Source: Anabaena sp. PCC 7108 (GTDB lineage Bacteria > Cyanobacteriota > Cyanobacteriia > Cyanobacteriales > Nostocaceae). Taken from it: a DNA stretch of 64,000 nt. Of this stretch, positions 8,467-43,898 are shown in pieces. Numbering within the stretch: position 1 is the stretch's first letter; each line of letters starts with the position of its first letter. The notes beneath the pieces were generated by a model. It was given only the letters and a program-made list of their open reading frames with translations, ran no database searches and was not told the origin of the DNA. A program made the position numbers and the translations under genes. Location: assembly GCF_000332135.1 (NCBI RefSeq), contig NZ_KB235896.1:124001-188000 (forward strand), read 5' to 3'.

Positions 8467-8879
8467 CGTGATTATTTCCCTATAATTGTTGCGAACTATG
8501 TATTAATTTATCAAATTGTTGGTACATATAGTACAAATTCTTAAAACTTTTTGTTAATTGCCGGTCGGGAAGGGTGAGATTGGGATAAAGGGGCAGGGCG
8601 ATGGTAATATTTCCCAGAACCGAGACGAACTGAAAGCGATACCTTCTCTTCGATACGCTCCGGGTTGGCGCAGTCTGTCCGTAGGACTTACGGTGAGCTA
8701 CGCGATCGCACTTACATTAGTTCTTACTGTTATAGGTACAGTTTTTCATCACCAAGCCTGTAGAGGCAGGGTTTCTTCGCCCTTTATTGTGTTGCATTCG
8801 ACCAATAAACGCACATATTAGTACTTGTGAAACATCCTGGATAAAGATATGATTTAATCGACTATGAAACAAAAATTTT
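8467..8879. other. 413-bp intergenic region, no gene seen
   Basis: This region separates divergent sat and the CHAT/AAA-remnant gene. Around 8640-8712 it has a GC-richer segment with small palindromes (CCGTAGGACTTACGG and a GCGATCGC site) similar to the small dispersed repeats at 13833-13861, 17358-17390 and 54778-54845. I find no plausible reading frame or RNA gene. Promoters for both flanking genes must lie here, but I cannot assign boxes with confidence. Confidence 0.5.
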
Positions 8880-9716
8880 GTGAAAAAAATTCTCATTTTA
8901 ACTGCTAACCCCACAAACACAAAACCATTACGTTTAAGTGAAGAAGTCAGGGAAATCAAAAGTGCTTGGGAGCGTTACCAAAAACGTGAACAATTTGAAA
9001 TTATTGTCGAAGAAGCAGTACGTCCTCAAGAATTTCGTCGTACTCTATTAGGATATAAACCAGATATTGTACATTTTTCAGGACATGGTGGAGGAGAACA
9101 GGGTTTAGCTTTAATGGGAGATAATGGAGAAGCCATTTTACTTAAAGTTGCTCCTTTAGCTAAATTTTTTAAAGCATTACAAGAAATATTTTTTAATGAA
9201 ACTTGGCAAAAATTGAGATTAGTTATTTCCCATTCTCAGGAAGTTTATATTTCTTTGGATGTGAATAAATCTCCTTTTAATGTCGGTTTACCCATTAATT
9301 TAAATAAGTTTAGTTTAACCCAGGTTCAAGATTTAGTTAAACGACATGGATTACAATGGTCAGACACAGAAATTAATCAATTAATGGGGATGATTGATGG
9401 TCATCCTTATTTGGTGAGAACAGCTTTATATCATATTGCTACTAACGACTTAACTTTAAAGCAATTTTTAGAAATTGCTCCCACTGAAGAAGGATTATAT
9501 GAAGACCATTTGTATCGTCATCTTCTCATTTTGGAAGAAAATCAAGAACTAAAATCAGCCATGTTAAAATTAGTTAATAGTGATGATGCAATTACATTAG
9601 AACCGATTTATGCTTTTAAATTAAAAAGTATGGGATTAGCAGAATCAAAAGGTAATAAAGTGATTCCACTATGTAATTTATATCGGCTTTATTTTAGCGA
9701 TCGTTTGCAAGATTGA
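8880..9716 (+). CDS. CHAT / AAA-like protein with the ATPase core deleted
   Basis: The start is GTG, since no ATG is available in frame. Residues 1-98 match the beginning of a cyanobacterial CHAT domain, with the catalytic-type histidine in HFSGHGGGEQG (His69) and the LKVAPLAKFFKAL segment. The later CHAT part that carries the cysteine is missing. From about residue 105 (ETWQKLRLVISHSQEVYI) the sequence matches the C-terminal end of AAA-like (PF14516-type) NTPases, including GLPINL and the GGHPYL-like motif DGHPYLVR. No Walker A or B is present. The simplest reading is an in-frame internal deletion joining the two ends of a CHAT-AAA protein. Similar STAND-type proteins act in signalling or defence. 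It may be non-functional, or persist as a regulatory remnant. Confidence 0.65.
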   Translation: MKKILILTANPTNTKPLRLSEEVREIKSAWERYQKREQFEIIVEEAVRPQEFRRTLLGYKPDIVHFSGHGGGEQGLALMGDNGEAILLKVAPLAKFFKALQEIFFNETWQKLRLVISHSQEVYISLDVNKSPFNVGLPINLNKFSLTQVQDLVKRHGLQWSDTEINQLMGMIDGHPYLVRTALYHIATNDLTLKQFLEIAPTEEGLYEDHLYRHLLILEENQELKSAMLKLVNSDDAITLEPIYAFKLKSMGLAESKGNKVIPLCNLYRLYFSDRLQD

Positions 9717-9780
9717 TTTATGTCATTTAAAATGATGACAATCGACTAAATCTAACCGAGTTATTTCATTATGGAAATAA

Positions 9781-9922
9781 CCCGCCCAGAACTGAAGTTC
9801 AGGGCTAATAACTAAAGTCCGTTAAAACGGACTATCAATTTTTCTTTAGTCGTCTTTAGACGACTTTTGCTATTAGACATGGCTACGCCACGCAAGCTAT
9901 CAGAATTCATTCTGAGGCGGGC
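9781..9922. mobile_element. MITE-like element with imperfect ends and two internal hairpins
   Basis: The left end CCCGCCCAGAACTGAAGTTC and the right end GAATTCATTCTGAGGCGGG are imperfect inverted repeats of about 20 bp. Inside are two perfect hairpins, AGTCCGTTAAAACGGACT at 9816-9833 and AGTCGTCTTTAGACGACT at 9848-9865. Repeats of this form are common in Nostocales intergenic DNA. I could not find a convincing target duplication. The second hairpin followed by TTTT might also serve as a terminator for the upstream gene. Confidence 0.6.
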
Positions 9923-9946
9923 TTTAGAAGAATCTGAAAAATAAAA

Positions 9947-12430
9947 ATGGAAAATTTAAACTCAGTTAATTATGAATATCAAGTAGGTGGTTCTCTCCCA
10001 GCTTCTGCTCCTACTTATGTTACTAGAAAAGCTGATGAGGAACTGTATCAAGCTATAAAAAAGGGAGAATTTTGTTATGTTTTAAATTCCCGACAAATGG
10101 GTAAATCTTCTTTAAGGGTTCAAACAATGAAACGGCTTAAAGAAGTAGATGGATTTGCTTGTGCTGCTATTGATTTAACTGAGATTGGTTCAGCTAATAT
10201 TACCCCTTTACAATGGTATGCAGGAATTATTATTGAATTAATTAATACCTTTGAATTAAATGAAAGATTTGATATAGATAGTTGGTGGGATAAATATGAC
10301 CAAGAATCTTTGTCTGCGGTGAATTTCTTTGGTAATTTTCTGCGAGATATTCTTTTAAAATATGTTGAATCAAACATTGTTATTTTTATTGATGAAATTG
10401 ATAGTACCCTGAGTTTAGATTTTAATGTTGATGATTTTTTCGCTTTAATTCGCTCTTTTTATAATCGTCGAGTTGATAATGTTAAATATAATCGTTTGAC
10501 TTTTGTATTATTAGGAGTAGCGACTCCCAGCGATTTAATTCAAGATAAAACTCGCACTCCTTTTAATATTGGTTATGGAGTAGAATTAACAGGTTTTACT
10601 TTTGCAGAATCTCAAGCATTAGCAAAGGGATTAAGTGTTAAAATCAATCAACCAGAAAAATTATTAGAATTAATTTTAAATTGGACTGGTGGACAACCTT
10701 TTTTAACTCAAAAAGTCTGTAATTTAGTTATAAATTCTTCTGGTTTATCTGAAGGAAATGAAAAAGAATGGTTAAAAAATTTAATTATAACTAATATTAT
10801 TGAAAATTGGACAGAACAGGATAAACCTGAACATTTACGCACCATTGAAAGACGGATTTTAATTGATGAACAAATGACAGGTGAATTATTAGATATTTAT
10901 CAAAAGATTTATCAACAGGGAGAAGTAGTTAGTCAGAATACTGGAGAGGAAGGAAAGTTACAGTTATCGGGTTTGGTGGTGAAAATAAATAATTATTTAC
11001 AGATTTATAATCCTATTTATCGAGAGGTTTTTAATCAAGAATGGATTGATAATCAATTAGCTGCTTTACGTCCCTATTCTGAAGCGTTTAGGGCGTGGTA
11101 TGGTTCAGGTTGTCAGGAAAATTCTTGGTTATTACGAGGAAATGCTTTAAGAAAAGCGGAAGAATGGGCAGAATCTAAGAATTTAAGTTTTCAGGATAAA
11201 CAATTTTTAGCCGCTTCTCGTCAGCAGGAAATTGAAGAGGAAATCAGAGAAAGGGAAAAGGAAGCGGAGTTAGAAAGGGAAAGAAAGGAGAAGGAAGCGG
11301 CAGAAAGGGCGATAATTATTGAGGAAGAAGTTAAACAAGAGGCAGAGAGGCAATTATCTATAGCTAACAAAAAAGTAACTGAAATAGAAAGAAATATTTG
11401 TAAAATCAAGGAATTATCCGCAGTAGCTTCTCAACTTCAACAAAAAGGTCACAACAACGAGGCTAACCAATTTTTAAATATTGCAGGTTTAGTCTTACAA
11501 GAAAAAATCAAAAATCAAGAACTTAAAGAGGCTTTATTAGATATTTCTTTAGTTTTAGGATATGAATATTTAGAAATAGAAGAAAAATATATTAAGGCCA
11601 AAGTAGAATTCGATAAAAGTTTTGAAAAAATATCAGAAGAAAATAAACCTGATAACAATAATTATAGTTATTTAGTTGTCTTAATCTATATTCATTATGT
11701 TAAAGGTAACGTAGAAAAAGAATTAAATAAAGTCTTATATAATTACAAGATAGCTTTTCAGAAATATAATCTTCTCAAATCTCAATTAAAATCTAATTTT
11801 GAGTTATTCACTTTAGACCTGAATATTCTCTATAATGGTAATGCAGATATTATTGGTATTCTTTATCGCAAACTTAATTATTTAGATAGATCAAATACAG
11901 TTTATTATGAATCTTTAAAAGCACATTTATTAGATGAATTGGACTATTTAATGCAGCAAAATAGATGGAAAGAAGCAGATCACAAAAATTGGCAATTTCT
12001 TCTTATTGCATCTGGAAAAGAAAAAGAAAATTATTTGCAATTAAATGATATCAAAAACTTTAATTGTGATGATTTAAAAAAACTAGATAGTTTATGGACT
12101 AGGAACTCTCAAGGACATTTTGGTTACAGTGTTCAGGAAAAAATATATCTAAGTACGGGCAATTCTTTAGAATTTGACTGGGATAAGGGCAATTTTACAA
12201 TATGGAATCAAACAAGATATGATGAGTTCGGGGAGGAATTAGGATGGAAGAAAAAGGGTGGAGAGTGGATGAAATATGATGAAATACCTTGGAAATGCGA
12301 AACTAACTTTCAAGCAGAGAGATACGGGATATTACCTCGCTACGGCGTATTATTGGGGATAGTTTCTGTTGCTGGTTGTGGTTCTGGACTTTCTCTTTTA
12401 TTACAAAGACTTGTAGATTGTAGCAGGTAA
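9947..12430 (+). CDS. AAA-like NTPase, coiled coil and C-terminal GUN4 domain
   Basis: The 827-residue protein begins with an AAA-like domain (about 10-400). Its Walker A is RQMGKSS (49-55) and its Walker B is IVIFIDEID (144-152); a GGQPFLTQ motif follows. Residues about 425-480 are an E/R/K-rich coiled coil. Residues about 665-800 match the GUN4 tetrapyrrole-binding fold: LKKLDSLW, then [12 protein letters not shown], then [13 protein letters not shown]. In cyanobacteria GUN4 domains, besides activating Mg-chelatase, are often fused to signalling proteins. AAA-like domains of this class more usually precede WD40 or TPR repeats. The gene follows a MITE and the CHAT/AAA remnant, which also derives from this ATPase class. 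Substrate and role are unknown. Confidence 0.8.
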
Positions 12431-32156: not shown

Positions 32157-35069
32157 TCATTGCGGCTGACAATTAGATATAGGCCGCCAAGAACGTTGAG
32201 AAAATTGACCTGTAGGTTCATAAGCCAAAAGTGTCACTTCTCCCTTTTCATTCATTACCCAACCCCTCGCCAGCACAACTTCAGTAGAAGGTGAGAGTAA
32301 AGAAGAATTTGCTATCATCTCTTTCTTATTTCCTTCCTCTATATTTCTTCTGTCACCTGTCACCTGTTCCCTATCACCTTCTGCCTCCACCCAAGCAAAC
32401 TGCTGATAATTACCGCTTAGAGCATCATTAGGACTTGGTGGTACTCCTCCCCTTCCAGTAATAGAAAATTCGCTTCCTGCCCCTCTTGTGCAGGGATTAG
32501 CAGCAATTAAAGTATTAGGATCAACGACATTTTGGGGGATTTCTACTAATCCTTGGGCGGGATTTACCCCAGAGGTGCTAAAAGTAACAGTGCCTTGTAA
32601 AGAAGCACCTGATACTTGAGAAATAGCAGCGATGTCACTTGTAGTCAGTAGAGATGTGGGACTGACCTGTAAAGTAGCAAATTGGTCATCGGTCAGTCCT
32701 AAACGCTCTCTAACTTGTTCTCGACTAACTGCTGTAAAACCAAATATATTTGGGACATTAACCGTAACTTTACCACCTTGGGCTGTACGAGCATTGGCTG
32801 TGATGTCGCTATTTTCCTGGGGAAATGCTAAGAGGATGTCACTATTGATATTGATGTTACCGCCGTCAAAACTACCAGCATCGGTTGTGATGGTACTGGC
32901 TTGACGTAATTGTATATCTTTCGCAGTGATGTTAATGTTTCCGCCACCACCTGCTTCGGTACTACCATTAATGCTACCTTTGTGATTGAGAGCGATCGCA
33001 TCAGCAACAATATTAATACTCCCAGCTTTCCCTGTTCCTAAACCCTGCACATTAATTGTGGACTCATTCTGCACAAGTAATTGCTGAACATTGAGATCTA
33101 ATGAACCTGCATTTGCTGTAGCGTTGGCATTAGTGAAATCACCGACAATCCCCACAGAAGCTTGGATTCTACTATTTAATTCCCCTGGATTCTGAATCCC
33201 TAAAAGCTGGACACGCCCAGCATCAATGGTAATATTTCCGGCATCACCTTTACCTAAAGAAGCTGCCGAAATTATCCCCCCATTCTCAAGAGTCAGCAGA
33301 GGTGTAGAAAGGTAAATATCACCTCCGCGACTGTTAGTATAAGTGTCAGCACTGAGAAAACTAACACTCTTTCCCCCGTTAGCTAAAACCCCAGAAACAC
33401 CACTCAGTTCTACCGATTCCGTGGCTTTAATTGTTAAATTCCCTCCCAGTCCCCCCGTCGAATTCAGGAGAACATTACCGATAGCCACACCACTGGTTAA
33501 GGTAATTCCCGCACCTTCAGAAATCAGTAATCGTTTAGTATCAATAGTAATATCCCCAGCTTTGCCAGTTGCACCAAAAGAAGTTGTCCCAATTAGGGTT
33601 TGTGAAACACTTCCAGCCGGAGTACGTAATACTTCTACTGATTCAGAGGCTTGAATATTGATATTTCCTGATACCCCTTCACCACGATTTAAACTAGCCA
33701 AACTAGAACCGTCACGCACTATCAACTGTTCTGAATTAATAGAAATGTCTCCTCCTGTACCAGTACTTCCGCGTAGATTACCGCTATTAATTCCAGAACT
33801 AACTAATTCTACAACCTTGGCATGGATGTTGAGTTCTCCCCCATTTTGAGAGCTATAAGTTCCACCTCCTATGGCTACTCCATTTTCTAATAATAAATTG
33901 CCAGTATCAATTGTCATGTTTCCAGCAAGACCTGTACTAAAGGTACTACTACTCAAAACAATTGGTAAATCAAAAGTATTTATTATTCCAGTAATTAGAT
34001 ATGTAGCTATCAAGTTTTGCAGACTAGGAAACCCCACACCACTGAATTCTACAGCCTCTTTAGTGCGAATATTTAAAGCCCCTCCTGCACCCTCACCATA
34101 GGTTGTAGTGGATATTTTTGATCCTTCCTGAGCGCGAAATTTTTGAGCATTGATATTTATGCCTTTTCCAGGTAAATTTCCTAGGGTTAAGGCAAAAATT
34201 TGGGAACTATTTAAAAGAAGATTATCACCTTGTAAGTTTATTTGACCACCACCAATACCGCTGGTATTAATCAGTGAATTATTGGTTATTTGAATATTGC
34301 CAAAATTTTGAATATTATCATAATTGACAGTGACATTTTGCGGAGTAAAACTCAAATTAACTAAGCCAGAACTAGCTACACTACCCAAAATAATTTGTCC
34401 GTTATTAGCAGTTAAATTACCATTGTCAAGTTGAATATTCCCACCAAGTAATGCTAAAGTTTGACCATCATCTACAGCGAAACCAAGATGATTATCTATA
34501 GGGATAGTTTCAGGTAAGGGAGGTAAATTTAATATTCCTATAGCTTGTGATTGATTAATAATTGTCCCCGGATGATCTCTAAATCTCAACCCCACAGGAA
34601 TATTCACAGTTAATAGAGGTGTTTGAGGATTATTACTACTAAATTCAAAGCCGTTATTAAATACCACACTGTCGGCTGTAGAAGCAAAAAATGAACCCCG
34701 TAAATCTAATTGGGCATTTTTTCCAAAAACAATTCCTTGGGGATTTAATAAAAATAAATTAGCATTTCCCAAAACTCCTAATGTTCCCAAAATATTGCTA
34801 GGATTACTACCTGTCACGCGGGTAAAGATATTGGTGATATTATGAGGATTTGTGAAATAAACTGCTTTTCCTTCACCAACATTGAATTCTTGGAAACTAT
34901 GAAATAAGCTAGAACTACGAATTGCTCCCCCTGCAATATTATCAGATAGTGAATTATTGATAATCTGGGATTTTTCTGAACCTAGAGTATCATCTGGGAT
35001 GATTTGCGCTAAAGCTGGAAAGGGAATCAGGAAATAGATAAAAAATAAAAAGAAAGATTTTTTAGTCAT
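32157..35069 (-). CDS. Filamentous-haemagglutinin-type exoprotein (TpsA-like)
   Basis: The product of about 970 residues has a signal peptide (MTKKSFFLFFIYFLIPFPAL, cleavage near ALAQ) and a TPS/haemagglutination-activity domain at about 20-260 (FHSFQEFNVGEG, then NPQGIVFGKNAQLDLRGSF). A long beta-helix of loosely repeated strands (INIQASESVEV, GDITIDTKRLL) follows. The C-terminal 100 residues are a cyanobacterial end module (EVVLARGWVMNEKGEV). The start is ATG 35067-35069, while an upstream TTG is unlikely. Near the end, DNA at 32342-32388 with tandem GTGACAG words encodes the low-complexity part GDREQVTGDRRN. It follows the OmpA-like gene after 42-81 bp; its likely transporter is the TpsB gene at 42189-43898. 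Confidence 0.88.
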   Translation of the reverse strand: MTKKSFFLFFIYFLIPFPALAQIIPDDTLGSEKSQIINNSLSDNIAGGAIRSSSLFHSFQEFNVGEGKAVYFTNPHNITNIFTRVTGSNPSNILGTLGVLGNANLFLLNPQGIVFGKNAQLDLRGSFFASTADSVVFNNGFEFSSNNPQTPLLTVNIPVGLRFRDHPGTIINQSQAIGILNLPPLPETIPIDNHLGFAVDDGQTLALLGGNIQLDNGNLTANNGQIILGSVASSGLVNLSFTPQNVTVNYDNIQNFGNIQITNNSLINTSGIGGGQINLQGDNLLLNSSQIFALTLGNLPGKGININAQKFRAQEGSKISTTTYGEGAGGALNIRTKEAVEFSGVGFPSLQNLIATYLITGIINTFDLPIVLSSSTFSTGLAGNMTIDTGNLLLENGVAIGGGTYSSQNGGELNIHAKVVELVSSGINSGNLRGSTGTGGDISINSEQLIVRDGSSLASLNRGEGVSGNINIQASESVEVLRTPAGSVSQTLIGTTSFGATGKAGDITIDTKRLLISEGAGITLTSGVAIGNVLLNSTGGLGGNLTIKATESVELSGVSGVLANGGKSVSFLSADTYTNSRGGDIYLSTPLLTLENGGIISAASLGKGDAGNITIDAGRVQLLGIQNPGELNSRIQASVGIVGDFTNANATANAGSLDLNVQQLLVQNESTINVQGLGTGKAGSINIVADAIALNHKGSINGSTEAGGGGNINITAKDIQLRQASTITTDAGSFDGGNININSDILLAFPQENSDITANARTAQGGKVTVNVPNIFGFTAVSREQVRERLGLTDDQFATLQVSPTSLLTTSDIAAISQVSGASLQGTVTFSTSGVNPAQGLVEIPQNVVDPNTLIAANPCTRGAGSEFSITGRGGVPPSPNDALSGNYQQFAWVEAEGDREQVTGDRRNIEEGNKKEMIANSSLLSPSTEVVLARGWVMNEKGEVTLLAYEPTGQFSQRSWRPISNCQPQ

Positions 35070-35150
35070 TTGCTTAAGTTGTTTTAAATATTGATATATT
35101 GATATCAATTTGATTATATATATTCAATCCCAACTGTTATTTAAGGTTGT

Positions 35151-35891
35151 CTAAAATGAAGTCACATTTCCCAAGCGAGTAAAACGGATTTCAATTCTTC
35201 GTCGTTTCACATCGTCTGTACGGGCTATCCCTGCAAATTGTCCATTTGGTAATATTAACTGTGCCGCAGAATAAGCACGAAATGAGAGTCCTCGCAGTCT
35301 ACCTTCCTTTTTTTGAATATCACGCAATACCTGGACAACTGACAAAGCACGCATTAATCCTAAATCAGCATTAGAAGCTGCTTGTAGTTTACCTACTGAT
35401 AAACTACCACTAGCTACTTTTTCTAAATTTACATCTAAATTACTGACTACATTACCATTAGGTTGTCCGTCAGTGTGTCCAATTATTTCTATAACATTAA
35501 TACCATATTGTTTAGTTCTAGTTTCTATTTCTGGTACTATTTGTTGCAAGATGTAATTTGACATTTTTGGGGGCATTTCTGCGCTACCGGAAGCAAATCT
35601 ATAATCTCCTTGATCTTTTATGATTATGATTGGTGGTGTATCTGTTGATTGTTTTTTTTGCTTGATTTGGGTTTGCAAATATTTTACTTGTTGCTCTAAT
35701 TGTTTGATTTTTACAGCTAAATTAACTGAATTTTTAACAGGTTTATTTTGATCTTTAGTAATTTGTGATATGATAATAGTTAGAAATAAAAATAAAACTA
35801 ATATCATAAACGCATTAGACATCAAATCAGTAAATGCTTGCCAAACATTTAAATCTTCATTATGTTCAGTATATCGTGAACGACGAGCCAT
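35151..35891 (-). CDS. MotB/OmpA-type stator partner (ZorB-like)
   Basis: The 246-residue inner-membrane protein has one N-terminal helix (about 22-44) preceded by FTDLMSNAFMI. Asp22 sits where MotB and ZorB carry the proton-binding aspartate. A short coiled coil (60-80) is followed by an OmpA-like peptidoglycan-binding domain: RFASGSAEMPP (99-108), IGHTDGQP (137-144), NADLGLMRALSVVQVL (174-189) and DDVKRRRIEIRF (226-237). It should pair with the MotA/TolQ-like channel encoded 54 bp upstream to form a proton-driven unit anchored to the cell wall. It is the fourth gene of the VWA-tubulin-channel-stator set. Confidence 0.85.
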   Translation of the reverse strand: MARRSRYTEHNEDLNVWQAFTDLMSNAFMILVLFLFLTIIISQITKDQNKPVKNSVNLAVKIKQLEQQVKYLQTQIKQKKQSTDTPPIIIIKDQGDYRFASGSAEMPPKMSNYILQQIVPEIETRTKQYGINVIEIIGHTDGQPNGNVVSNLDVNLEKVASGSLSVGKLQAASNADLGLMRALSVVQVLRDIQKKEGRLRGLSFRAYSAAQLILPNGQFAGIARTDDVKRRRIEIRFTRLGNVTSF

Positions 35892-35945
35892 AAGTTAAAT
35901 GTGTTTGTGAATATGAATCATTTCTAATCAATCTGATTTACTTAG

Positions 35946-37574
35946 CTATTCAATTTCTTGTTTGAATCTAGCAATAGAATTTTTCGTATCATAAAGATTT
36001 TTATTACATTCCTGAAGATTAGCGATAATCCTTTGAAAACCTTGGGTATTGATACCTGTTTGTTTATCAATTCCTTTAATCATGGTATTACTAACAGTTT
36101 GGTACTCGGAAATCAGTTGAGAATTATTATTTTGTAATGATTTCATCAAATCTGATTGAAGGTTAGCAAATTCCAGGCTAAATTGGTGGACATAGGTTTC
36201 AATATTATTTACAAAAGTTTGAATTTGTTGATTATTACTATCTAATTGATTAGATACACTGGCAATGGTAAAATTAACTTCCGATATGTGTGTTTTCCCA
36301 GTTTCTAACAACTGATTGATAACGGTTATTAATTCACCCAAACTATTAACTTTATCACTCACCCTCTGCTCTAAATCATCCAGTTTTTTCACCGCTTTTT
36401 GATAACTGTTAGCTCCTTTCTGAAGTTGAGGAATAATTTCACCAAGATAATTTTGGTTAGATTGATGTAAATCTAATACTTGAATTGAACTTTGATTAAT
36501 ACTCTTGATATCATTTGCTAAAGTCATTAAAGCATAACTACAGTTCTGAACTTCAATTAAAACAGTTTGAATCAATTCTGTTGTTGTGGCTAAACTTGCA
36601 GCTGACTGGGAAAATTTTTGCTGTGTATTACTCAAATCTACTGTAGCTAATGATAATTGTAGAGGAAACTGACTTTGATTAAAAGTTTCAGCGGACTGTT
36701 TAAATATTTGAGATGTTGCATTTAATTCTGACATTGAATTTTCAAACTCATAAGCAGCACGAGATATAGTTCCAGCAGCGTCTGTAAATTTTTCATAAAC
36801 TTGTCTAGCTAAATCTGTAGTTTCTTTATTTCCGTCAGCAATTTGTTGTGCTACTTTTCCCATAGATTGTTCCACAGCTTCGCGCACTGTTTCGCCAAAA
36901 TTTGTTAAAAATTCATCCTGCTGGGATACCATTCTATTCACTATTCTATCAAGACGAGCATCACCTTGGACTTCAGGAAGATAAATATTATCTAAATAAT
37001 CTTCTAAAGAACTAATCAGCCGATATTTAGCAAGTCCAGCATTAAATATAAAATTGACTACTGTTAACAAAGCACTGAAAAATAGTCCTGTTAAACTAGT
37101 AGTAAATGCAATACTCATTCCTTCTAATGGTTTCTTTAATTCAGTAACTAAATTGCTGACATCATTAGCATTAGTTTGATTAATCGTTTGACTAAGGGTA
37201 GATAAATTAATGGTGATACCTAAAAAAGTTCCCAGTAATCCAAACGCTAACAGTAAATTTGGCAGAATCCGACATAAATAATCTATTTGTTCACAGGTAA
37301 ATCCCTTAATTTTTTCCTGACTATAAATTTGATCTATTAATGCTCCTGTATTTACCTGTTCTAATTGTTTACTAGCTTGCTGAAATCTATCTTCTAATAT
37401 TTCAACAATTTTCGGTTGTTCTCCCCTTACTCCTGTCTTGATTAATCTTTGGACTTTATTAGTTAAAACTATCAAATAGCGGTAAAGAGATATGCGAAGA
37501 ATAATAGTAACTATAGATGGGATGATAACCAGAAAAAGAGTGATAAAAATTAAGTAAGGTGGTAGTGGTGGCAT
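35946..37574 (-). CDS. MotA/TolQ/ExbB-type proton channel with long helical tail (ZorA-like)
   Basis: Counting from an upstream ATG at 37634, helices lie at about 25-50, 123-145 (LLLAFGLLGTFLGITINL, the family GLLGTFLG motif) and 174-199 (AFTTSLTGLFFSALL). About 340 residues of predicted coiled coil follow, rich in Gln, Asn, Ser and Leu, as in ZorA tails or chemoreceptor-like helices. I prefer the ATG at 37572-37574 (MPPLPPYLIF) because AAGG lies 8 nt upstream, whereas the ATG at 37634 has no Shine-Dalgarno. The first helix is kept either way. It lies just after the tubulin-like gene and before the MotB/OmpA-like gene. The channel fold is well supported; the motor role is inferred. Confidence 0.82.
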   Translation of the reverse strand: MPPLPPYLIFITLFLVIIPSIVTIILRISLYRYLIVLTNKVQRLIKTGVRGEQPKIVEILEDRFQQASKQLEQVNTGALIDQIYSQEKIKGFTCEQIDYLCRILPNLLLAFGLLGTFLGITINLSTLSQTINQTNANDVSNLVTELKKPLEGMSIAFTTSLTGLFFSALLTVVNFIFNAGLAKYRLISSLEDYLDNIYLPEVQGDARLDRIVNRMVSQQDEFLTNFGETVREAVEQSMGKVAQQIADGNKETTDLARQVYEKFTDAAGTISRAAYEFENSMSELNATSQIFKQSAETFNQSQFPLQLSLATVDLSNTQQKFSQSAASLATTTELIQTVLIEVQNCSYALMTLANDIKSINQSSIQVLDLHQSNQNYLGEIIPQLQKGANSYQKAVKKLDDLEQRVSDKVNSLGELITVINQLLETGKTHISEVNFTIASVSNQLDSNNQQIQTFVNNIETYVHQFSLEFANLQSDLMKSLQNNNSQLISEYQTVSNTMIKGIDKQTGINTQGFQRIIANLQECNKNLYDTKNSIARFKQEIE

Positions 37575-37647
37575 AAAAATTACCTTTGGTAGTGCAGGAA
37601 GATTGTGAAAAGTGGGTAGATATGAACTACCCATAAAAAAGGCTATA

Positions 37648-40600
37648 CTAGGTGAGATATTTCTCGACTATTTTTTGCATTTGTATCTCATAATATTCTT
37701 GAGGAATCAAGTTATTATCAAACAATTCTTTTAAACGTGCTAATTCTGAACGTAATTTGTCTTGATTATTGTTATTTTCTAGAGGAGAACTAGGAACTAT
37801 TTCCCCAACAATAGCTTTTTGAGTTCCTGTATTGTTTCTGGGTGGAAGTGAATTTTGATTTCTAAATCTTGCTTCCATCTTCTTCCAAAAACGATTTATT
37901 ACTCCTTCCCTAACTGTTGGTTGTATCTTGTCAGGTGACACATAGACTTTTTGGATATGGGGAAAATTAGGACTATCTTTGGGTATTTGCTTGAGCTTAT
38001 CTGGAAAATGACGCAGTTTCGGTAGATATTCATTTTCCCATAGTTTCGGATTATTTTGCATTTCCGAAATTACATCATCTAAAATCTTCTGTAAAGTATC
38101 CGCCATATTGCGATTATTTGCCAAATCTTCTAAAGATTGCATCCAGTTTGCACTCACCGCAGCAGTATAATAACTATCTTGGAACGAGTCATAATGTTGA
38201 AACTCTAATTCTTGAGTTTCGTAATTTGCTGTTAATAATTCCAATGCTAAACAAGGATAAAAAATATTCTCCACTTCTTCCATTTTTCCTGCATTAGGTG
38301 GGATAATATCAGGAAAGGAAGTGTAATAGTCATTATGCAAGAAATATTTGCCAGAATTTTGTTCTCGTAAATATGGGTTTCTCATTCTTTCCAAATTACT
38401 AATTAATCTCAAAGGAAATGCACCATACTCATTCACAAATAAAATTTCATCATCTGCTTGCATTGGTTTTAAAACAGTGTTTGAAACTCCTAAATCTTGA
38501 GTGAGTAAAGTTTTAAACTGTTTCACTTCTAATTCATCTGTATCTTTATATCCTACTAATTTACTACTTTTAGCAGGATCATCTCGGAAATAAGGATCAT
38601 TCAAATTTAAACGCAGCAAAGGTTGAGCTTCCTGCATAATTTGTGCTAAACGAGTTGAACGTGCAGCTAAGGAGTATTTTTGCATGAAGCGTTTAATCAC
38701 AGAAGTAACAATATTGCTACCTCGAAAAGCAAATAAACTATCAATTTTCAGATCAATTTCTTGTTTTAGCTGAGAGTGAGTAGTGCGTTCCATATTCAGG
38801 AAAAATGCCAAAGATGCTCCTCTGCCAGTTTCTTCGGTAAGTGCTGAACTTGCTAAGACTAATTGAGGACGAACATCATTTTCTGGTAAGATTGTTTGAT
38901 GACAAAGTTCTATATCCTCACTATCAAAAATTGCTTCTCCACTCATTTCATCAAAATTCAACTGTTTTAATTCTTGTTCCTCCTTCTCATAAGCACTTTG
39001 TAAGTCTTCTACTAAACTGCTAAAAGCAGCAACTTGTTTTTCTCTTTCTTGAACGTGCTTTTGTAACTGATTAACAATTTTCAGTGTTTCTTGTAAAACT
39101 GTTAAATTAAAATTATGCCTGATCAGTTTACAAACTTCCTGAATTACCTTTTTACATTCTTCTTGAAATTGGCTATTCTTTAAATTGCCAATCAGCATAA
39201 ATTTATTTTCCAGTTCTTCAATTATTTGATCAGTGTTATCCCACTTTCTTTCTACATCCTCTATGCGTTTCATTCCCCCAAAATCAGTTATTGATTCTTG
39301 CAAATCACGTTGATATTTATGCAATTCATGTTGCAGTGCTTCTAACCAGTTACGGCTGTTTTTAATAGAAAAGTTAGCTTCTATTGGTGTAAGTAGCTGA
39401 ATCAAATAATCATCAATGTTGGTGCTAAGTTCTTTGATAATTTTAGGAGCAGCTTGTATTAATTTGGTCAACCAATAACCGCGAATACTTTCAGTTTCTC
39501 CTGGTTGTACAGTACGGAACTGTTTATAAAATTCTGTCGCTAACTGTTGCCGTACATTTGCGCGATCATCCTTAGTTTTACATTCAGAGATTAACTTTGA
39601 TAATTTATTTTGCCAAGTTTTGATACTATTACTAAAAGTCTTATTAGATTCTTCTACAGATTCCGCTAATTTATTAATTAATCCATCTCGTTTTACTAAA
39701 TCATTATGCCAATGATTTTGAATCAAAAATTGCTCTAATAAGTTTGCAGGATCAGGGCTTTGACCTTCACCATTTAACCAAAATTTGACTAATTCTGAAC
39801 CGACTTTTGTTAAGGCTATTTGAATGATCGTATCACGAGGAAAATAAATCGCTGATAGTCCAAATGTTAAGTATCTTTGGCTATTAGGGCGTGGATGATC
39901 ATCATTCTTGATTAGATGTTCTTGCAAATTATCTCTGTTGCTTTTGACAGATGCTGCTAATTCACCAGAAAATTCTAAAGCAATTTTATGAGCAATTACA
40001 TTACATAGCTTACCTTGTGTAAGTATTGAATATTCTCCTAGTGTTTGATTACTTACTAAATAAGTATATTCAAATGGTGAACGTTGTTCTTGTACAGAAA
40101 CTAAATTTTGAGTATCATAACAAGCTTCAAATTTTGTGCCAGGAGAACTATAGTAATTGAGTTCTTTAAGGGCAGCATAAGTGTTAGAAATCATGCTCGT
40201 TGTATTACCATACAATTCTGGACTAATGACTAAATAGCCAAAAATGCAAGCGCCTTGTTCACCATAAATATTTCTCAGACTATAAGCAACATCTAAAAAC
40301 ATTCCGCTTCCTGTGCCACCACAAAGAGAACCGACCACAAAAATATTTAATCCTGCTTTTATTTCTAAACCTGATTGCAATAATAAAGATTCATGTCCTC
40401 TCGTCTTTTTTTCGGCTGTTTCAATGGCTACTTGAATTTTTTGGTAGTTGTGGAAAAAAGCCAGTCGTCCCACAGGTCTAATACCTTTTGCACCGTCTTC
40501 AATTGCTCTAACGTCTCGCAATAACTGAGGAGGAAACCAGATCCCAATATGGTCATAAGGTCCATAACTACTATATTCTGAACGCCGTTCTAGTCCTTCT

Positions 40601-40896
40601 ACAAACATGGTGACATCTTTAGATGACATGGTAGCACCGACTTTTTCAGATTCTTTAAAACTTAAATCAACGCCATGATATGTACTCCCAGTTCTAATAC
40701 CTGTGACTTGGGTTGCAGCTTTATCTGTGTCAATATGAACGAAACTAACAATTGGTAAATTATTTAAATCTCCATAGCGGTCAACAAGTAACCTTCTAAT
40801 TCGCATTAAAACATCTCTACCAGTTCCACCTAAACCGATACAAATTGTGCGATTAATTCCTCTAGATTGGGTTTCGTTTGCAGATGCTTGAGTCAT
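37648..40896 (-). CDS. Large tubulin/FtsZ-like GTPase with C-terminal SHOCT-like helix pair
   Basis: The 1082-residue protein starts with a tubulin-like (PF13809-type) GTPase domain. The nucleotide-binding first loop is GLGGTGRDVLMRIRR (21-35), an acidic segment HIDTDKAA follows at 54-61, and the tubulin signature is GGTGSGMF (193-200). Residues about 370-690 are mostly helical and coiled coil. A C-terminal part of unclear fold follows. The last 35 residues (ELARLKELFDNNLIPQEYYE) look like a SHOCT oligomerisation motif. A good AAGGA Shine-Dalgarno precedes ATG 40894-40896. It starts 16 bp after the VWA gene. Far larger than FtsZ (about 420 residues), it is not the division protein. It may form filaments or rings tied to the envelope motor. 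Confidence 0.8.
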   Translation of the reverse strand: MTQASANETQSRGINRTICIGLGGTGRDVLMRIRRLLVDRYGDLNNLPIVSFVHIDTDKAATQVTGIRTGSTYHGVDLSFKESEKVGATMSSKDVTMFVEGLERRSEYSSYGPYDHIGIWFPPQLLRDVRAIEDGAKGIRPVGRLAFFHNYQKIQVAIETAEKKTRGHESLLLQSGLEIKAGLNIFVVGSLCGGTGSGMFLDVAYSLRNIYGEQGACIFGYLVISPELYGNTTSMISNTYAALKELNYYSSPGTKFEACYDTQNLVSVQEQRSPFEYTYLVSNQTLGEYSILTQGKLCNVIAHKIALEFSGELAASVKSNRDNLQEHLIKNDDHPRPNSQRYLTFGLSAIYFPRDTIIQIALTKVGSELVKFWLNGEGQSPDPANLLEQFLIQNHWHNDLVKRDGLINKLAESVEESNKTFSNSIKTWQNKLSKLISECKTKDDRANVRQQLATEFYKQFRTVQPGETESIRGYWLTKLIQAAPKIIKELSTNIDDYLIQLLTPIEANFSIKNSRNWLEALQHELHKYQRDLQESITDFGGMKRIEDVERKWDNTDQIIEELENKFMLIGNLKNSQFQEECKKVIQEVCKLIRHNFNLTVLQETLKIVNQLQKHVQEREKQVAAFSSLVEDLQSAYEKEEQELKQLNFDEMSGEAIFDSEDIELCHQTILPENDVRPQLVLASSALTEETGRGASLAFFLNMERTTHSQLKQEIDLKIDSLFAFRGSNIVTSVIKRFMQKYSLAARSTRLAQIMQEAQPLLRLNLNDPYFRDDPAKSSKLVGYKDTDELEVKQFKTLLTQDLGVSNTVLKPMQADDEILFVNEYGAFPLRLISNLERMRNPYLREQNSGKYFLHNDYYTSFPDIIPPNAGKMEEVENIFYPCLALELLTANYETQELEFQHYDSFQDSYYTAAVSANWMQSLEDLANNRNMADTLQKILDDVISEMQNNPKLWENEYLPKLRHFPDKLKQIPKDSPNFPHIQKVYVSPDKIQPTVREGVINRFWKKMEARFRNQNSLPPRNNTGTQKAIVGEIVPSSPLENNNNQDKLRSELARLKELFDNNLIPQEYYEIQMQKIVEKYLT

Positions 40897-40912
40897 GGTT
40901 TTTCCTTGAATA

Positions 40913-42061
40913 CTATTTTTTAATTTTGATAGAAATCTCGTGATCGCGTTGGCGTTTATCTGGACAATTTAGTGTAAAATTAGAACTAGAGATAAGAGTC
41001 CGTGATGTAATTTTTTTGTTGTTAAGTTCAATTTTTGCATCTTCCTTTGGCACTAAATAAAGCTTTTCTCCTTTACGTTCTAAATATGCTTTAATGTCTC
41101 CACCTCTAAAGTCAATAGAATGTATACAGCTAGAATCATCTTCACCAATTGCGATTTTTTTATGATTTGCTAATCTACATATTTTTTCTTCATCTTCTCC
41201 ATCATCTTCTAACTTGATTCGCACTTCCCATTTTTTTTGTAGTCTGGCAAATCTGAATATACTCCAAATTCCGGATACCAATATTAATAATAAAATGAAA
41301 CTGGGAAGCCATAGCTGTTTAATTAAATAAGGATTAACTAAACAAGTTTCTTGATTTCCTGGTGCTGGTGTACAAAATTCTTGAACTGTAGAGTTAATGT
41401 CTATTACAGATAGTTTATAATCTTTATTATCTTGGTTTTTAATAATAAGCGATCGCTCTTTTAAATGTAAAGATTGAATCCAATTTTGTCGCTCTTGACT
41501 TTCCGTAGATTCTGCTATTCTAAAAGGACTATTAGCAGGAGTTTCTATCCAAATTTGGGAAGTAATTCCTGGTTTAGTCAATAATGGTGCATCAGTAATC
41601 CAAACAACTGACTGCGGCTTAATTGGTTGATTTTTTGAGAGGCGATTTTGATTAATCTGTGCTATGGCTTGATAAACAGTTAATTCTGCTCTTTGAATAT
41701 CTGTTCCGTAGCGGTTAGGATCATAGTTAAAAGGAATTTTTGCTAAGACTTTATCAATATTTTCTATATTTTTATTACTAAAATATATTGGCGTTCCTAA
41801 TGGATTTTCTAGAGATATAACTTCATCAAAAACTAAATCTTGAGCAAAAGGAACAATGTAAACAGAATCTCCAGGTTTGAGGCTGTCTTCAACTATCTGA
41901 CGTAAGCGAATACGTCCTTGGTCATTTAAACCCACACTTTCCGTTACATCAATGGCTAAAACAACATCACGTTTACCCCCACCCAAGAGGGATACTAACT
42001 GTAAGCCATTTTTTTGTGTGTCAGTCAGTGGTTGTCCAGGGAGAATTTTTGTTATATTCAC
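40913..42061 (-). CDS. VWA-domain membrane protein
   Basis: The 382-residue protein has an N-terminal von Willebrand A domain (about 30-215) with MIDAS residues D38-V-T40-E-S42 (DxTxS variant), a TD pair at 120-121 and Asp157 in VVWITDAP. A pair of cysteines (230, 240) precedes a single transmembrane helix at about 247-270. A basic segment (RFARLQKKWEVR) and a 110-residue C-terminal domain follow. The start is GTG at 42061, with an in-frame stop two codons upstream, so no signal peptide can be added. The positive-inside rule would place the tail in the cytoplasm and the VWA outside, but topology is uncertain. It is the first of the four tightly packed genes. Confidence 0.8.
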   Translation of the reverse strand: MNITKILPGQPLTDTQKNGLQLVSLLGGGKRDVVLAIDVTESVGLNDQGRIRLRQIVEDSLKPGDSVYIVPFAQDLVFDEVISLENPLGTPIYFSNKNIENIDKVLAKIPFNYDPNRYGTDIQRAELTVYQAIAQINQNRLSKNQPIKPQSVVWITDAPLLTKPGITSQIWIETPANSPFRIAESTESQERQNWIQSLHLKERSLIIKNQDNKDYKLSVIDINSTVQEFCTPAPGNQETCLVNPYLIKQLWLPSFILLLILVSGIWSIFRFARLQKKWEVRIKLEDDGEDEEKICRLANHKKIAIGEDDSSCIHSIDFRGGDIKAYLERKGEKLYLVPKEDAKIELNNKKITSRTLISSSNFTLNCPDKRQRDHEISIKIKK

Positions 42062-42188
42062 AAATTATATATACGGTTTATTCTGTATTTTATCTGACAA
42101 TTGCCATTGATGAAAGCGCATTGTGTCAAAAAAATAATATTTACGATTAAAAATTCTTTTATGTTTTTTTATTTCTTTCTTGCCTTAC

Positions 42189-43898
42189 TTAAAATAGAAA
42201 ATAGTTAATAGTGAGGTAAAAACCTTGATCTTGTAAGGTTTCATCACTTGCTTTCACATCGATGAGGGGGATACCATAATCTAAACGCGCATTTAACTTA
42301 TCGCTCATTTGCCAGATTAACCCTAAACCTGTACCTAATAAATTATTTGATTGGGAATTTGCTTTTTCTCCCGCATAGTTCCACCCTACCCCAAAATCAA
42401 GGAAGGGTGCTACCTGTAAAACTCCTTTTGCTTCTGGTATACGCAGAATAGGAATACGTAATTCTGCTGAGGCGATCGCACCGTTATCTGTTAAGATTAA
42501 GTCTTGACGATAGCCTCGCACGCTTCTAACTCCACCAATTCCGATCTGTTCTAGAGATAGTAATGAATCTGTGGATATCTGAATATCGGAACGCAGAATT
42601 AACAAGGTTTCTGGTGCTAATGAACGCACATATTGCCCTTGTCCTCTCCAGGCAAAAAAGCGGCTATCTGGTGCATTATTATTTACTGTAGCACCAAAAA
42701 TATCTGTACCTAAAGAAAATTGCGATCGCGCTGCTAAAACTTGACGAGGACTCCTTTGCACATATTCTTGAAAAAACCGCAAACTGGAAACGCTGGTTTC
42801 TCCCTGATTATTCGCTCCTGGAGATAGGGGAAATCCCTCTTTTAACAGGGAAGTTTGGCTTTCTTGTCGGGAAAAAGTTAACCCTAATGCTATTTCTTGA
42901 TTTGGTTTTTGAATAATGGGTTGACGATATGTGAGTTCATAAGTGCGTGATTTTCCCGCAATATCTAGGCGATTAAATGGCTGTTCAATCACGTTAGTAT
43001 TAGTTACACCTGCTGTAAATTCAATTGTGCCATTGTGGGCATTGATGGGTAAAGTATAATTAGCATCAAAGGCATTACTCCCATCACTGTTTGTATAAGA
43101 TAACTCTAATCCATCACCCCAACCAAGTAAATTGCCTTGATTAATTTTAATACCCCGTCGTAAACTACCCACGCTGGGAGAACGATTGTTATCCATAAAT
43201 ATTTCACTAGTAAGTGTATCTGCTTCTTTGACTCGCACTTGTAACCGACTTTGTTGGGGACGACTTCCGGCTTGGAGTTCAGCAGAAATATTCGCAATTA
43301 GGGGGTTGAGTTGCAGTATTTGTAAGGCTTCTAATAATTTGTTGCGGTTGAGGGGTTTTTTAGTGGCAATTTCTAAACGCGATCGCAGATAATTAGCATT
43401 GAGGCGACGATTACCGATAATCTGAATTTCTATTAATTCCCCTTCGATAATCCGAATTTTTACCACTCCTCCAGTTCTAGGAAAGCTTTGATTAGCCAAA
43501 ATCACCGCACCAGAATTGATATATCCAGCTTCGACATATTTTTGCGTTACTGCTGTCTCTACTGCTATGAGTTCCGCAAAGGTAATTTCCCTGTCTGTAA
43601 AGGGCTTGGTGACTTCTGCAAGTTGGCGATTGCTAAAAGCAGTATTTCCCTCAAATTCAAAGCCTTCTACGCGAATTGTACCGGGAATCTGTGGCAATAT
43701 GTTCCCAGGTTGCAGAGTGGGTGGATTGGTTTCTAGAGGAGTAGGTAGAGATTTTTTAGGCTGAATTGGGCTGAATTCGCGGTTTTTTGGGATAACAGGG
43801 TCAGGTCTTTGAACGATATAATCGGTAATTTCCATATTTTTTGTCTCACGCAGAGGCGCAGAGGCGCAAAGAGGAATCAATAGTATGTCTAAGTACAT
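42189..43898 (-). CDS. ShlB/FhaC/HecB-type outer-membrane transporter (TpsB-like)
   Basis: The protein of about 550-570 residues has a proline-rich linker (30-70), two POTRA domains (about 72-225; IRVEGFEFEGNTAFSNRQL, then GELIEIQIIGNRRL) and a 16-strand barrel. The barrel carries the RGYRQD motif (VRGYRQ, needed for secretion) and ends in Phe (YLTINYFLF). It would export the TpsA-like exoprotein encoded 7 kb downstream on the same strand. The N-terminus is odd: no normal signal peptide is seen. The frame from 43898 begins MYLDILLIPLCASAPLRETK, partly encoded by a CGCAGAGG intergenic repeat; an internal ATG at 43835 has no signal at all. Export may be impaired. Confidence 0.82.
   Translation of the reverse strand: MYLDILLIPLCASAPLRETKNMEITDYIVQRPDPVIPKNREFSPIQPKKSLPTPLETNPPTLQPGNILPQIPGTIRVEGFEFEGNTAFSNRQLAEVTKPFTDREITFAELIAVETAVTQKYVEAGYINSGAVILANQSFPRTGGVVKIRIIEGELIEIQIIGNRRLNANYLRSRLEIATKKPLNRNKLLEALQILQLNPLIANISAELQAGSRPQQSRLQVRVKEADTLTSEIFMDNNRSPSVGSLRRGIKINQGNLLGWGDGLELSYTNSDGSNAFDANYTLPINAHNGTIEFTAGVTNTNVIEQPFNRLDIAGKSRTYELTYRQPIIQKPNQEIALGLTFSRQESQTSLLKEGFPLSPGANNQGETSVSSLRFFQEYVQRSPRQVLAARSQFSLGTDIFGATVNNNAPDSRFFAWRGQGQYVRSLAPETLLILRSDIQISTDSLLSLEQIGIGGVRSVRGYRQDLILTDNGAIASAELRIPILRIPEAKGVLQVAPFLDFGVGWNYAGEKANSQSNNLLGTGLGLIWQMSDKLNARLDYGIPLIDVKASDETLQDQGFYLTINYFLF

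Follow-up and report, generated by a model that had tools for sequence, protein, structure and literature searches.

Gene layout and encoded proteins

The DNA analysed here, referred to as the window, is a 64,000-nucleotide stretch of the 5.89 Mb genome of the cyanobacterium Anabaena sp. PCC 7108 (contig NZ_KB235896.1, positions 124,001 to 188,000 of the forward strand; G000:C2:124001-188000 in our numbering). Between positions 35151 and 42061 of the window lie four open reading frames (ORFs) of 382, 1082, 562 and 246 amino acids, all on the minus strand, which are called the cassette in this study. In the order of transcription, they encode a membrane protein with a von Willebrand factor A-like (vWA) domain, a tubulin-like GTPase, a channel subunit of the MotA/ZorA type and its MotB/ZorB-type partner. 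The genes are separated by gaps of 16, 13 and 54 bp with the start codons chosen in our analysis, and promoter- and terminator-like sites at the locus were found at chance level only. An earlier note on this DNA had described four same-strand genes with short gaps, and their positions, strand and lengths were reproduced here. The profile search of all four proteins suggested in that note gave a clear match for the tubulin-like protein (PF13809), matches below the Pfam cut-offs for the motor pair (MotA_ExbB and OmpA) and no Pfam match for the vWA-like protein.

The tubulin-like GTPase, of the Tubulin_2 or FtsZl1 type, is encoded at 37648..40896 on the minus strand. Its match to PF13809 (Tubulin_2) has an E-value of 7.5e-108 (361.4 bits, with a cut-off of 27), spans residues 18-371 (39784..40845) and is the sole PF13809 match in the window genome. 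The plain Tubulin family PF00091 matches at 0.0029, below its cut-off. The GGTGSG motif occurs in 113 of 114 strong tubulin matches; this and the other motif counts below were taken over the strong matches of two locus sets, with some genomes present in both. The profile evidence supports placing the large protein in the tubulin superfamily. This assignment rests on Pfam, as structure prediction covered the channel and the vWA protein. Comparison of the tubulin alignment with solved structures returned eight helical or unrelated chains and no tubulin, and the region following the tubulin domain gave weak helical-bundle matches only. A short helical motif at the C-terminus (37651-37770) reads, to our eye, like SHOCT; the only Pfam match there is GvpG at 0.28.

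The channel subunit (35946..37634, minus strand) is predicted to have three hydrophobic helices followed by a helical tail of ~330 residues. Its membrane core, residues 26-196 (37047..37559), carries the motifs GLLGTFLGIT and PLEGM-x-IAF-x-TSL in columns conserved among 23 aligned sequences, and the MotA motif G-x-x-GT[FV]-x-G is present in 109 of 114 strong channel matches. The tail, residues 227-561 (35952..36956), comes from an AlphaFold model with a predicted local distance difference test (pLDDT) score of 62.3, ten-residue means in the tail being 41-77, and probably lies on the cytoplasmic side, judging from the family. The protein scores 9.6 bits to Pfam MotA_ExbB (cut-off 22.9) and 52.3 bits to the NCBIfam profile ZorA_2 (NF033915, cut-off 100), and matches the PADLOC ZorA profiles at 9.4e-14. 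When the channel profile was compared with solved structures, coiled-coil proteins came out on top and ZorA (8vvn) was the first non-coiled-coil entry, at rank 5 (1.1e-06). In the fold search, ZorA chains take ranks 1-6, followed by ExbB and TolQ, with a best E-value of 4.6e-03.

The partner (35151..35891, minus strand) combines a transmembrane (TM) helix, bearing an aspartate at position 22, with an OmpA-like peptidoglycan-binding domain. It scores 16.9 bits to Pfam OmpA (cut-off 27.2) and matches PADLOC ZorB at 5.4e-12. Among solved structures its profile finds ZorB (8vvn at 6.1e-06, 8vvi at 3.1e-04) and then PomB. Asp22 is invariant in 23 aligned partners, the window's included; the MotB motif [TS]DLM occurs in 102 and GHTD in all of the 105 strong partner matches. 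Profile and fold comparisons thus support assigning the channel and its partner to the MotAB/ZorAB class, in which ZorA and ZorB are their nearest solved relatives.

The first gene (40913..42061, minus strand, GTG start) encodes the 382-residue vWA-like protein. Pfam gave no vWA match in it at E<=1, and a profile search with a 23-sequence alignment found no match among solved structures. Its predicted structure (mean pLDDT 81.9) matched inter-alpha-inhibitor heavy chain 1 (6fpy) in a fold search at E 8.1e-05, with a root mean square deviation of 19 over 303 columns, together with many FHA entries (5djo, 3oun, 2lc1 and others; best E 3.8e-05, target-normalised TM-score <=0.70). The fold listing carries no residue ranges, and the domains were placed on the predicted structure. 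On that model, the vWA match would correspond to the part before a single TM helix and the FHA match to the beta-rich part after it. The vWA domain would then span residues ~30-222 (41396..41974, limits by our reading), the TM helix residues 250-268 (41258..41314), and the FHA-like domain residues ~276-382 (40916..41236). D38, T40 and S42 of the metal ion-dependent adhesion site (MIDAS) are invariant, and T120 and D157 are present in >=90% of the 23 vWA sequences; we take the MIDAS roles of these five residues to be those familiar from the vWA family. The DxTxS pattern is found in 88 of 89 strong vWA matches. Lysine and arginine are richer after the TM helix than before it in 19 of the 23 sequences, and two invariant cysteines, C230 and C240, precede the helix; this favours a topology with the vWA domain outside and the FHA-like domain inside. 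No signal peptide was apparent by eye, no predictor having been used. Phosphothreonine-binding FHA domains carry an arginine after the residues IG. In the FHA-like domain this position is a glutamate in 18 of 23 sequences, so the usual phosphothreonine-binding arginine is missing.

The descriptions of the proteins in the earlier note hold up well in these comparisons: a VWA membrane protein with a MIDAS is upheld by the predicted fold and the conserved residues, a 1082-residue tubulin-like GTPase by PF13809, a MotA/TolQ/ExbB-type channel with a long helical tail by the ZorA profiles, the core motif and the fold search, and a MotB/OmpA-type partner with Asp22 by the ZorB profiles and the invariance of that residue. 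The FHA-like part had been overlooked.

Co-occurrence, movement and distant relatives

PF13809 matches were found in 61 of 292 genomes across the phylum, 57 of them above the cut-off. With iterated profiles, we surveyed 61 loci, namely 60 places from the PF13809 match table and the window; the survey left aside G125, G072:C5, the pieces of G016, those pieces of G187 beside a fetched place, and weak PF13809 matches in frames of ~500 amino acids. All four genes are present in 30 of the 61 loci. The tubulin gene stands alone in 23, several of which have a different vWA-like membrane protein upstream, and the remaining eight hold two or three genes, several of them at contig ends. Two 'MotA' matches on the opposite strand (L035 and L053) look spurious; they belong to the two-gene class, outside the 30. 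Wherever each gene had a single match, the order vWA, tubulin, channel, partner on one strand was kept (26 of 26 loci), a gene order beyond chance. The gaps in these 26 loci are mostly <110 bp, with nine of 200-880.

A second route started from the channel. Searching GTDB genomes with its alignment gave 181 confirmed relatives, and we kept the best 80 of the 181, all of them with cyanobacterial titles; the nearest named relatives of the cassette come from Nostocaceae and Aphanizomenonaceae. All four genes are present in 50 of the 68 channel-selected loci with enough flank among these best 80 of 181. The other 18 comprise three channels near a tubulin gene with another part absent and 15 stand-alone channel-partner pairs (L168, L171, L199, L202 and others), found in Okeania, Moorena, Roseofilum, Hormoscilla and others. 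By our reading of the sequence, several of these stand-alone pairs, in Oscillatoriales, adjoin a hisS-like gene. In a 73-row channel tree, the label for a neighbouring tubulin gene changes three times, against 14.6 in shuffles, and none of 500 shuffles was as low. The motor pair can thus exist without the tubulin gene, and the tubulin-linked version is cohesive. As the earlier note had expected of a genuine unit, the four genes recur together, by the counts from both routes and by the label test on the tree.

Within the window the cassette lies between two secretion genes on the same strand, which go unmentioned in the earlier note: tpsB (42189-43898; ShlB 3.7e-31), 127 bases away, and tpsA (32157-35108; TPS domain 6.9e-56), 42 bases away, measured from the ORF ends. 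The full order of transcription on the minus strand is tpsB, vWA protein, tubulin-like protein, channel, partner and tpsA. Three congeners (G292, G293 and G294; loci L117, L118 and L121) have tpsB next to tpsA and lack the cassette at this place, the absent segment corresponding to 35040..42188 of the window, with approximate ends set by the limits of DNA similarity. The fourth congener, G295, has a distant tpsB only. Two of the three, G293 and G294, carry the cassette at another site (L119 and L120), and at that site in the window genome (L260) the cassette is missing, with ~1.2 kb in its place. Because three congeners lack the cassette between tpsB and tpsA and two of them carry it elsewhere, the four genes move as a unit and the tpsB and tpsA flanks are incidental. 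Profiles built from the window proteins found no tpsB near the 60 other tubulin loci and one tpsA-like gene, on the opposite strand (L072); neither gene was found near the best 80 channel loci. A secretion link through these flanks was accordingly rejected, and exoprotein handling, one of the functions raised in the earlier note, was not borne out, because, of the loci examined, only the one in the window genome has the secretion genes on either side.

Of 40 relatives, 19 have a channel match at E<=1e-5. In L120 of G294, at ~8757-10640, the channel gene is interrupted by ~1.9 kb with inverted repeats at its bounds; this insert holds opposite-strand frames, one of which reads like WD40 repeats. 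The channel tree places the window with rows from Dolichospermum and Anabaena UHCC and not with its congeners (Shimodaira-Hasegawa-like approximate likelihood ratio 94, below the tool's star), and a tree of the vWA and tubulin proteins does not reject the window and its congeners as one clade (approximately unbiased test, p-AU 0.498). Horizontal gain of the window copy was set aside as an explanation: the channel tree speaks for it, the vWA and tubulin tree does not require it, and relocation and transfer look the same in these data.

Related gene sets extend to distant genomes. In the distant genome G047, from the same phylum (completeness 74%, contamination 5%), the relevant genes lie on one strand (L089) in the order secreted vWA-like protein, PF13809 protein, four other genes, channel and OmpA protein (2.1e-18). 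The vWA-like protein there reads 'YIDASGSM' and has no Pfam match. The G047 channel scores 1.8e-61, but with a profile that already contained it; an independent hhalign comparison gives a probability of 95.5 over 73 columns.

A tblastn search of plasmids matched nine records, and we examined eight of them. Among these is a plasmid of cyanobacterial origin in which the motor pair is not next to the tubulin gene. Three Deinococcus plasmids (L265, L267 and L268) carry tubulin, channel and OmpA protein in the order of the cassette; in one of them, tubulin and channel are separated by an insertion sequence and an additional gene. Their channels score 59.7-62.8 bits and have a conserved NLLMLAGLLGTVLG-type core, one being annotated MotA/TolQ/ExbB in its record. 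The sets are preceded by a membrane-anchored protein, the vWA nature of which could not be shown, and are followed by large genes annotated as beta-helix, kinase or DUF2336. On three Thermales plasmids (L262, L263 and L269) the vWA and tubulin genes precede one other gene and BrxL, which on one plasmid directly follows a transposase; among the genes scanned on them, none matched the channel or the partner. The Meiothermus plasmid also has an HmaC-like gene upstream. The Thermales genes may represent a defence cluster that contains a tubulin; the word 'tubulin' is absent from the main text of a 2026 BREX survey (PMC12839542). The remaining record, an Azospirillum plasmid (L264), has its PF13809 gene near OmpA-family and caspase-family genes. 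No match to the cassette was found in phages, and 22 candidate stretches in viral contigs yielded no confirmed case.

Relation to Zorya, FtsZl1 operons and ion motors

The cassette was compared with Zorya, whose ZorA and ZorB supply the best solved matches of its motor pair by profile (for the channel, after coiled-coil proteins) and by fold (PDB 8VVN, 8VVI and 8QYD). The long tail is alike in both, and the partner has the ion-site aspartate and the peptidoglycan domain of a ZorB-type protein. In contrast, Zorya operons contain ZorC and ZorD, or ZorE, whereas none of these was found in the cassette and its outer neighbours are tpsB and tpsA. The cassette channel also stays below the curated ZorA cut-off (NF033915, 52.3 vs 100), and neither the tubulin nor the vWA protein matched any PADLOC Zor profile. 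Membership in Zorya fails on these comparisons, and the likeness to ZorA is loose.

The specificity of that likeness was examined across the phylum. Matches to ZorA_2 below the cut-off occur in 171 of 285 genomes, with none of the 285 above it, and frames of ~300 amino acids in genomes of ~2 Mb (family f31, L237-L256, and others) score as high as 87.9 bits, where the window channel reaches 47.0. The use of the ZorA profile as proof of defence was rejected on the basis of this control. The resemblance to ZorAB noted earlier therefore stands as far as the nearest solved relatives and the missing ZorC, ZorD and ZorE are concerned, and falls as a pointer to defence.

The gene neighbourhoods were sampled with 105 of 274 flank ORFs, hand-picked from the first loci (L035-L061, without L053 and L055; L035 is not a true cassette) with some short ORFs omitted, and including six of eight from the window, tpsA and tpsB being excluded. 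The control sample consisted of 100 ORFs from 20 arbitrary regions in 17 genomes. PADLOC assigned 110 families in the flank ORFs and 110 in the controls, none clearly enriched; a weak enrichment could be missed, as the 25 commonest of the 110 families were visible. Family mad3 occurs in five flank ORFs and two controls, mad8 in four flank ORFs and DEAD-box HamB models in two, the last two not among the 25 commonest control families. The commonest Pfam families in the flanks are the ABC transporter (five ORFs) and phycobilisome, DEAD helicase, PIN and DUF4168 (three each). The flanking gene set is mixed: it is not a defence island, yet DEAD and PIN are present.

A closer published counterpart exists. 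Makarova and Koonin (2010, PMC2875224) described this tubulin family as FtsZl1 and, in the available part of their text, reported vWA genes in the majority of predicted FtsZl1 operons and OmpA-family genes in several genomes, showed a cyanobacterial clade in the FtsZl1 tree and proposed a role in membrane remodelling. A reviewer of that paper objected that the cytoplasmic and periplasmic compartments of the parts do not fit. The cassette shares three elements with the FtsZl1 system, namely a PF13809 N-terminal GTPase domain, an adjacent vWA gene and an adjacent OmpA-family gene. It differs in that the P-loop GTPase or Ser/Thr kinase often found in FtsZl1 operons does not adjoin it, and in that the OmpA protein, treated there as a barrel or peptidoglycan protein, is read here as a MotB/ZorB-type anchor with its own channel. 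The terms 'MotA', 'ExbB' and 'TolQ' do not appear in the main text of PMC2875224, although an unnamed family in its Additional files 5 and 6 may be the channel. The cassette is thus a variant of the FtsZl1/vWA/OmpA system in which an ion motor has been recognised, and the suggestion of a new machine in the earlier note gives way to operons published in 2010.

Compared with MotAB, ExbBD and TolQR, the cassette pair shares the channel fold and the logic of the ion site, but scores below the Pfam cut-offs and has in addition the long tail and the linkage to a tubulin-like GTPase. The three TM helices and the conserved Gly/Thr channel motif of 5:2 ion motors are both seen in the cassette channel, in a low-confidence model. 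According to PMC11890865, in its available part, 8VVN and 8VVI are ZorAB structures of such 5:2 motors, and the ZorA tail and the ZorB peptidoglycan domain are required for defence. A 2020 survey (PMC7159879, likewise in part) lists tubulin-vWA-GTPase clusters among predicted conflict systems. Its GAP1-N2 systems resemble the cassette in that vWA membrane proteins accompany a tubulin whose C-terminus is helical or a coiled coil, but are built on a GTPase/GAP1-N2 pair, not seen in the cassette, and their tubulin theme is reported for Firmicutes and Actinobacteria. Its main text does not contain 'MotA'. From the portions available, a 2023 phylogeny (PMC9871819) set the Tubulin_2 family aside as divergent, and a 2025 study of MotAB relatives (PMC12505986) makes no mention of tubulin. 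No description of a pairing between an ion motor and a tubulin-type protein was recognised in the open-licence PubMed Central literature searched by titles and abstract starts. The examined passages of the cited papers describe no experiment on the FtsZl1 family.

Candidate mechanism and competing explanations

Starting from the four proteins with the families or predicted folds, key residues, co-occurrence and joint movement established above, we propose, tentatively and at somewhat short of an even chance, that the cassette encodes a peptidoglycan-anchored ion motor whose tail acts on a tubulin-like GTPase close to the membrane, with the vWA-TM-FHA protein as adaptor or sensor. The proposal is based on the gene set and its order, the movement of the genes as a unit, the distant relatives, Asp22 and GLLGTFLG, and the likeness to ZorA and ZorB. 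The channel and the plug or anchor with its ion-binding Asp22 would together make up an accessory 5:2 motor. In the most probable course of events, the OmpA-like domain, the vWA domain or both would sense that the wall or envelope is disturbed, and the motor would be released; the tail would turn or flex, and in response the tubulin-like protein would change its assembly or its GTP turnover and then act on the inner membrane or envelope. The vWA-TM-FHA-like protein could serve as the transmembrane adaptor or sensor. We infer the single complex, its 5:2 make-up, the ion flow, the contact between tail and GTPase and all later steps.

Several observations weigh against this proposal. The structural model of the channel is of poor quality, and none of its weak fold matches reaches E 0.001. 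The helical tail contributes part of the Deinococcus channel score, and the partners there match their profile weakly (E 2.2e-05 to 0.0051, 43 proteins searched). Eight of the 15 genomes with stand-alone pairs have no PF13809 match (their completeness is not stated) and seven have one elsewhere; 23 of 61 tubulin loci lack all three partners by profiles, or 25 when the two spurious matches are discounted. Neither half therefore needs the other everywhere. No single frame matching two of the profiles was found in the loci scanned. The FHA-like domain lacks its usual phosphothreonine-binding arginine, and filament formation is uncertain, since the T6-H7 elements were not confidently identified in the FtsZl1 family (PMC2875224, available part).

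Two of the competing explanations concern what such a machine would do. In a Zorya-like anti-phage defence, which we regard as possible but somewhat unlikely, the tubulin-like GTPase and the vWA protein would replace ZorC and ZorD, or ZorE, as the output of a ZorAB-type sensor. The ZorA and ZorB kinship of the motor pair would fit this, as would the patchiness, movement and decay of the cassette (19 of 40 relatives; the interrupted channel gene of G294), the vWA-tubulin genes near BrxL in Thermales plasmids with an HmaC-like gene in one, the DEAD helicase and PIN genes in the sampled flanks and the conflict-system prediction for tubulin-vWA-GTPase clusters, whose tubulins may or may not be of the PF13809 family (PMC7159879, available part). 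However, the ZorA_2 profile is unspecific, the flanks are not clearly enriched over controls and have ABC transporter and phycobilisome among their commonest families, the tubulin and vWA proteins have no Zor match, the MotAB pair is absent among the Thermales genes scanned, and phages and viral contigs gave no confirmed match. That a tubulin-like filament remodels the inner membrane or envelope, acting on shape, vesicles or septa, with the motor pair providing force or anchorage, seems rather unlikely. Such remodelling was predicted for the FtsZl1 family (PMC2875224, available part), and the stand-alone MotAB pairs beside a hisS-like gene in several Oscillatoriales look like a stable chromosomal place and not a defence island. 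A patchy, mobile and partly decaying distribution would be unusual for a core shape function, and the compartment mismatch raised by the reviewer in 2010 is answered in part by the motor pair, though not by experiment. Defence and remodelling, in that order of probability, share the same foundation, as a motor acting on a tubulin-like protein underlies both.

The other two explanations give the cassette a different role. A surface-sensing, motility or transport machine, akin to the vWA force transducers on TolQR-like motors, is quite improbable. Such vWA proteins, tied to TolQ-type motors, were proposed to be driven by the proton motive force (PMC12204202, available part), and the charge bias of the cassette protein favours a periplasmic vWA domain; the published proteins, however, have an SHLS motif that binds the motor or a helix bearing an Asp, whereas the motor partner of the cassette is a separate MotB-type protein, and cyanobacteria are not among the hosts of vWA transducers in the available part of that source. 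That the cassette belongs to two-partner secretion and powers export of the neighbouring filamentous haemagglutinin-like protein is suggested by its position between tpsB and tpsA on the same strand, at 127 and 42 bases. With tpsB and tpsA adjacent and the cassette absent in three of four congeners, no close tpsB in the fourth, no tpsB and one opposite-strand tpsA-like gene near 60 tubulin loci, and neither gene near the best 80 channel loci, this role is refuted as a general function and highly improbable for the cassette.

A wider claim, that there is a widespread family of machines in which ZorAB/MotAB-type motors directly drive or gate the assembly of a tubulin-superfamily polymer in at least Cyanobacteriota and Deinococcota, perhaps as a new class of envelope-triggered immunity, is doubtful at present. 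If the proposal of a motor acting on a tubulin-like GTPase is true, a tubulin-type protein would be the target of an ion-driven motor, a connection with no match in the literature searched, and a transmembrane ion gradient would be coupled to a cytoskeletal GTPase. The 'OmpA' partner of FtsZl1 would be one half of an ion motor, with the other half encoded next to it. Such a motor spans the gap between cytoplasm and periplasm, and the objection of the 2010 reviewer is therefore partly answered. The interest of the cassette lies in making the 2010 prediction testable, as it would provide the membrane machine proposed then with a power source that can be put to the test.

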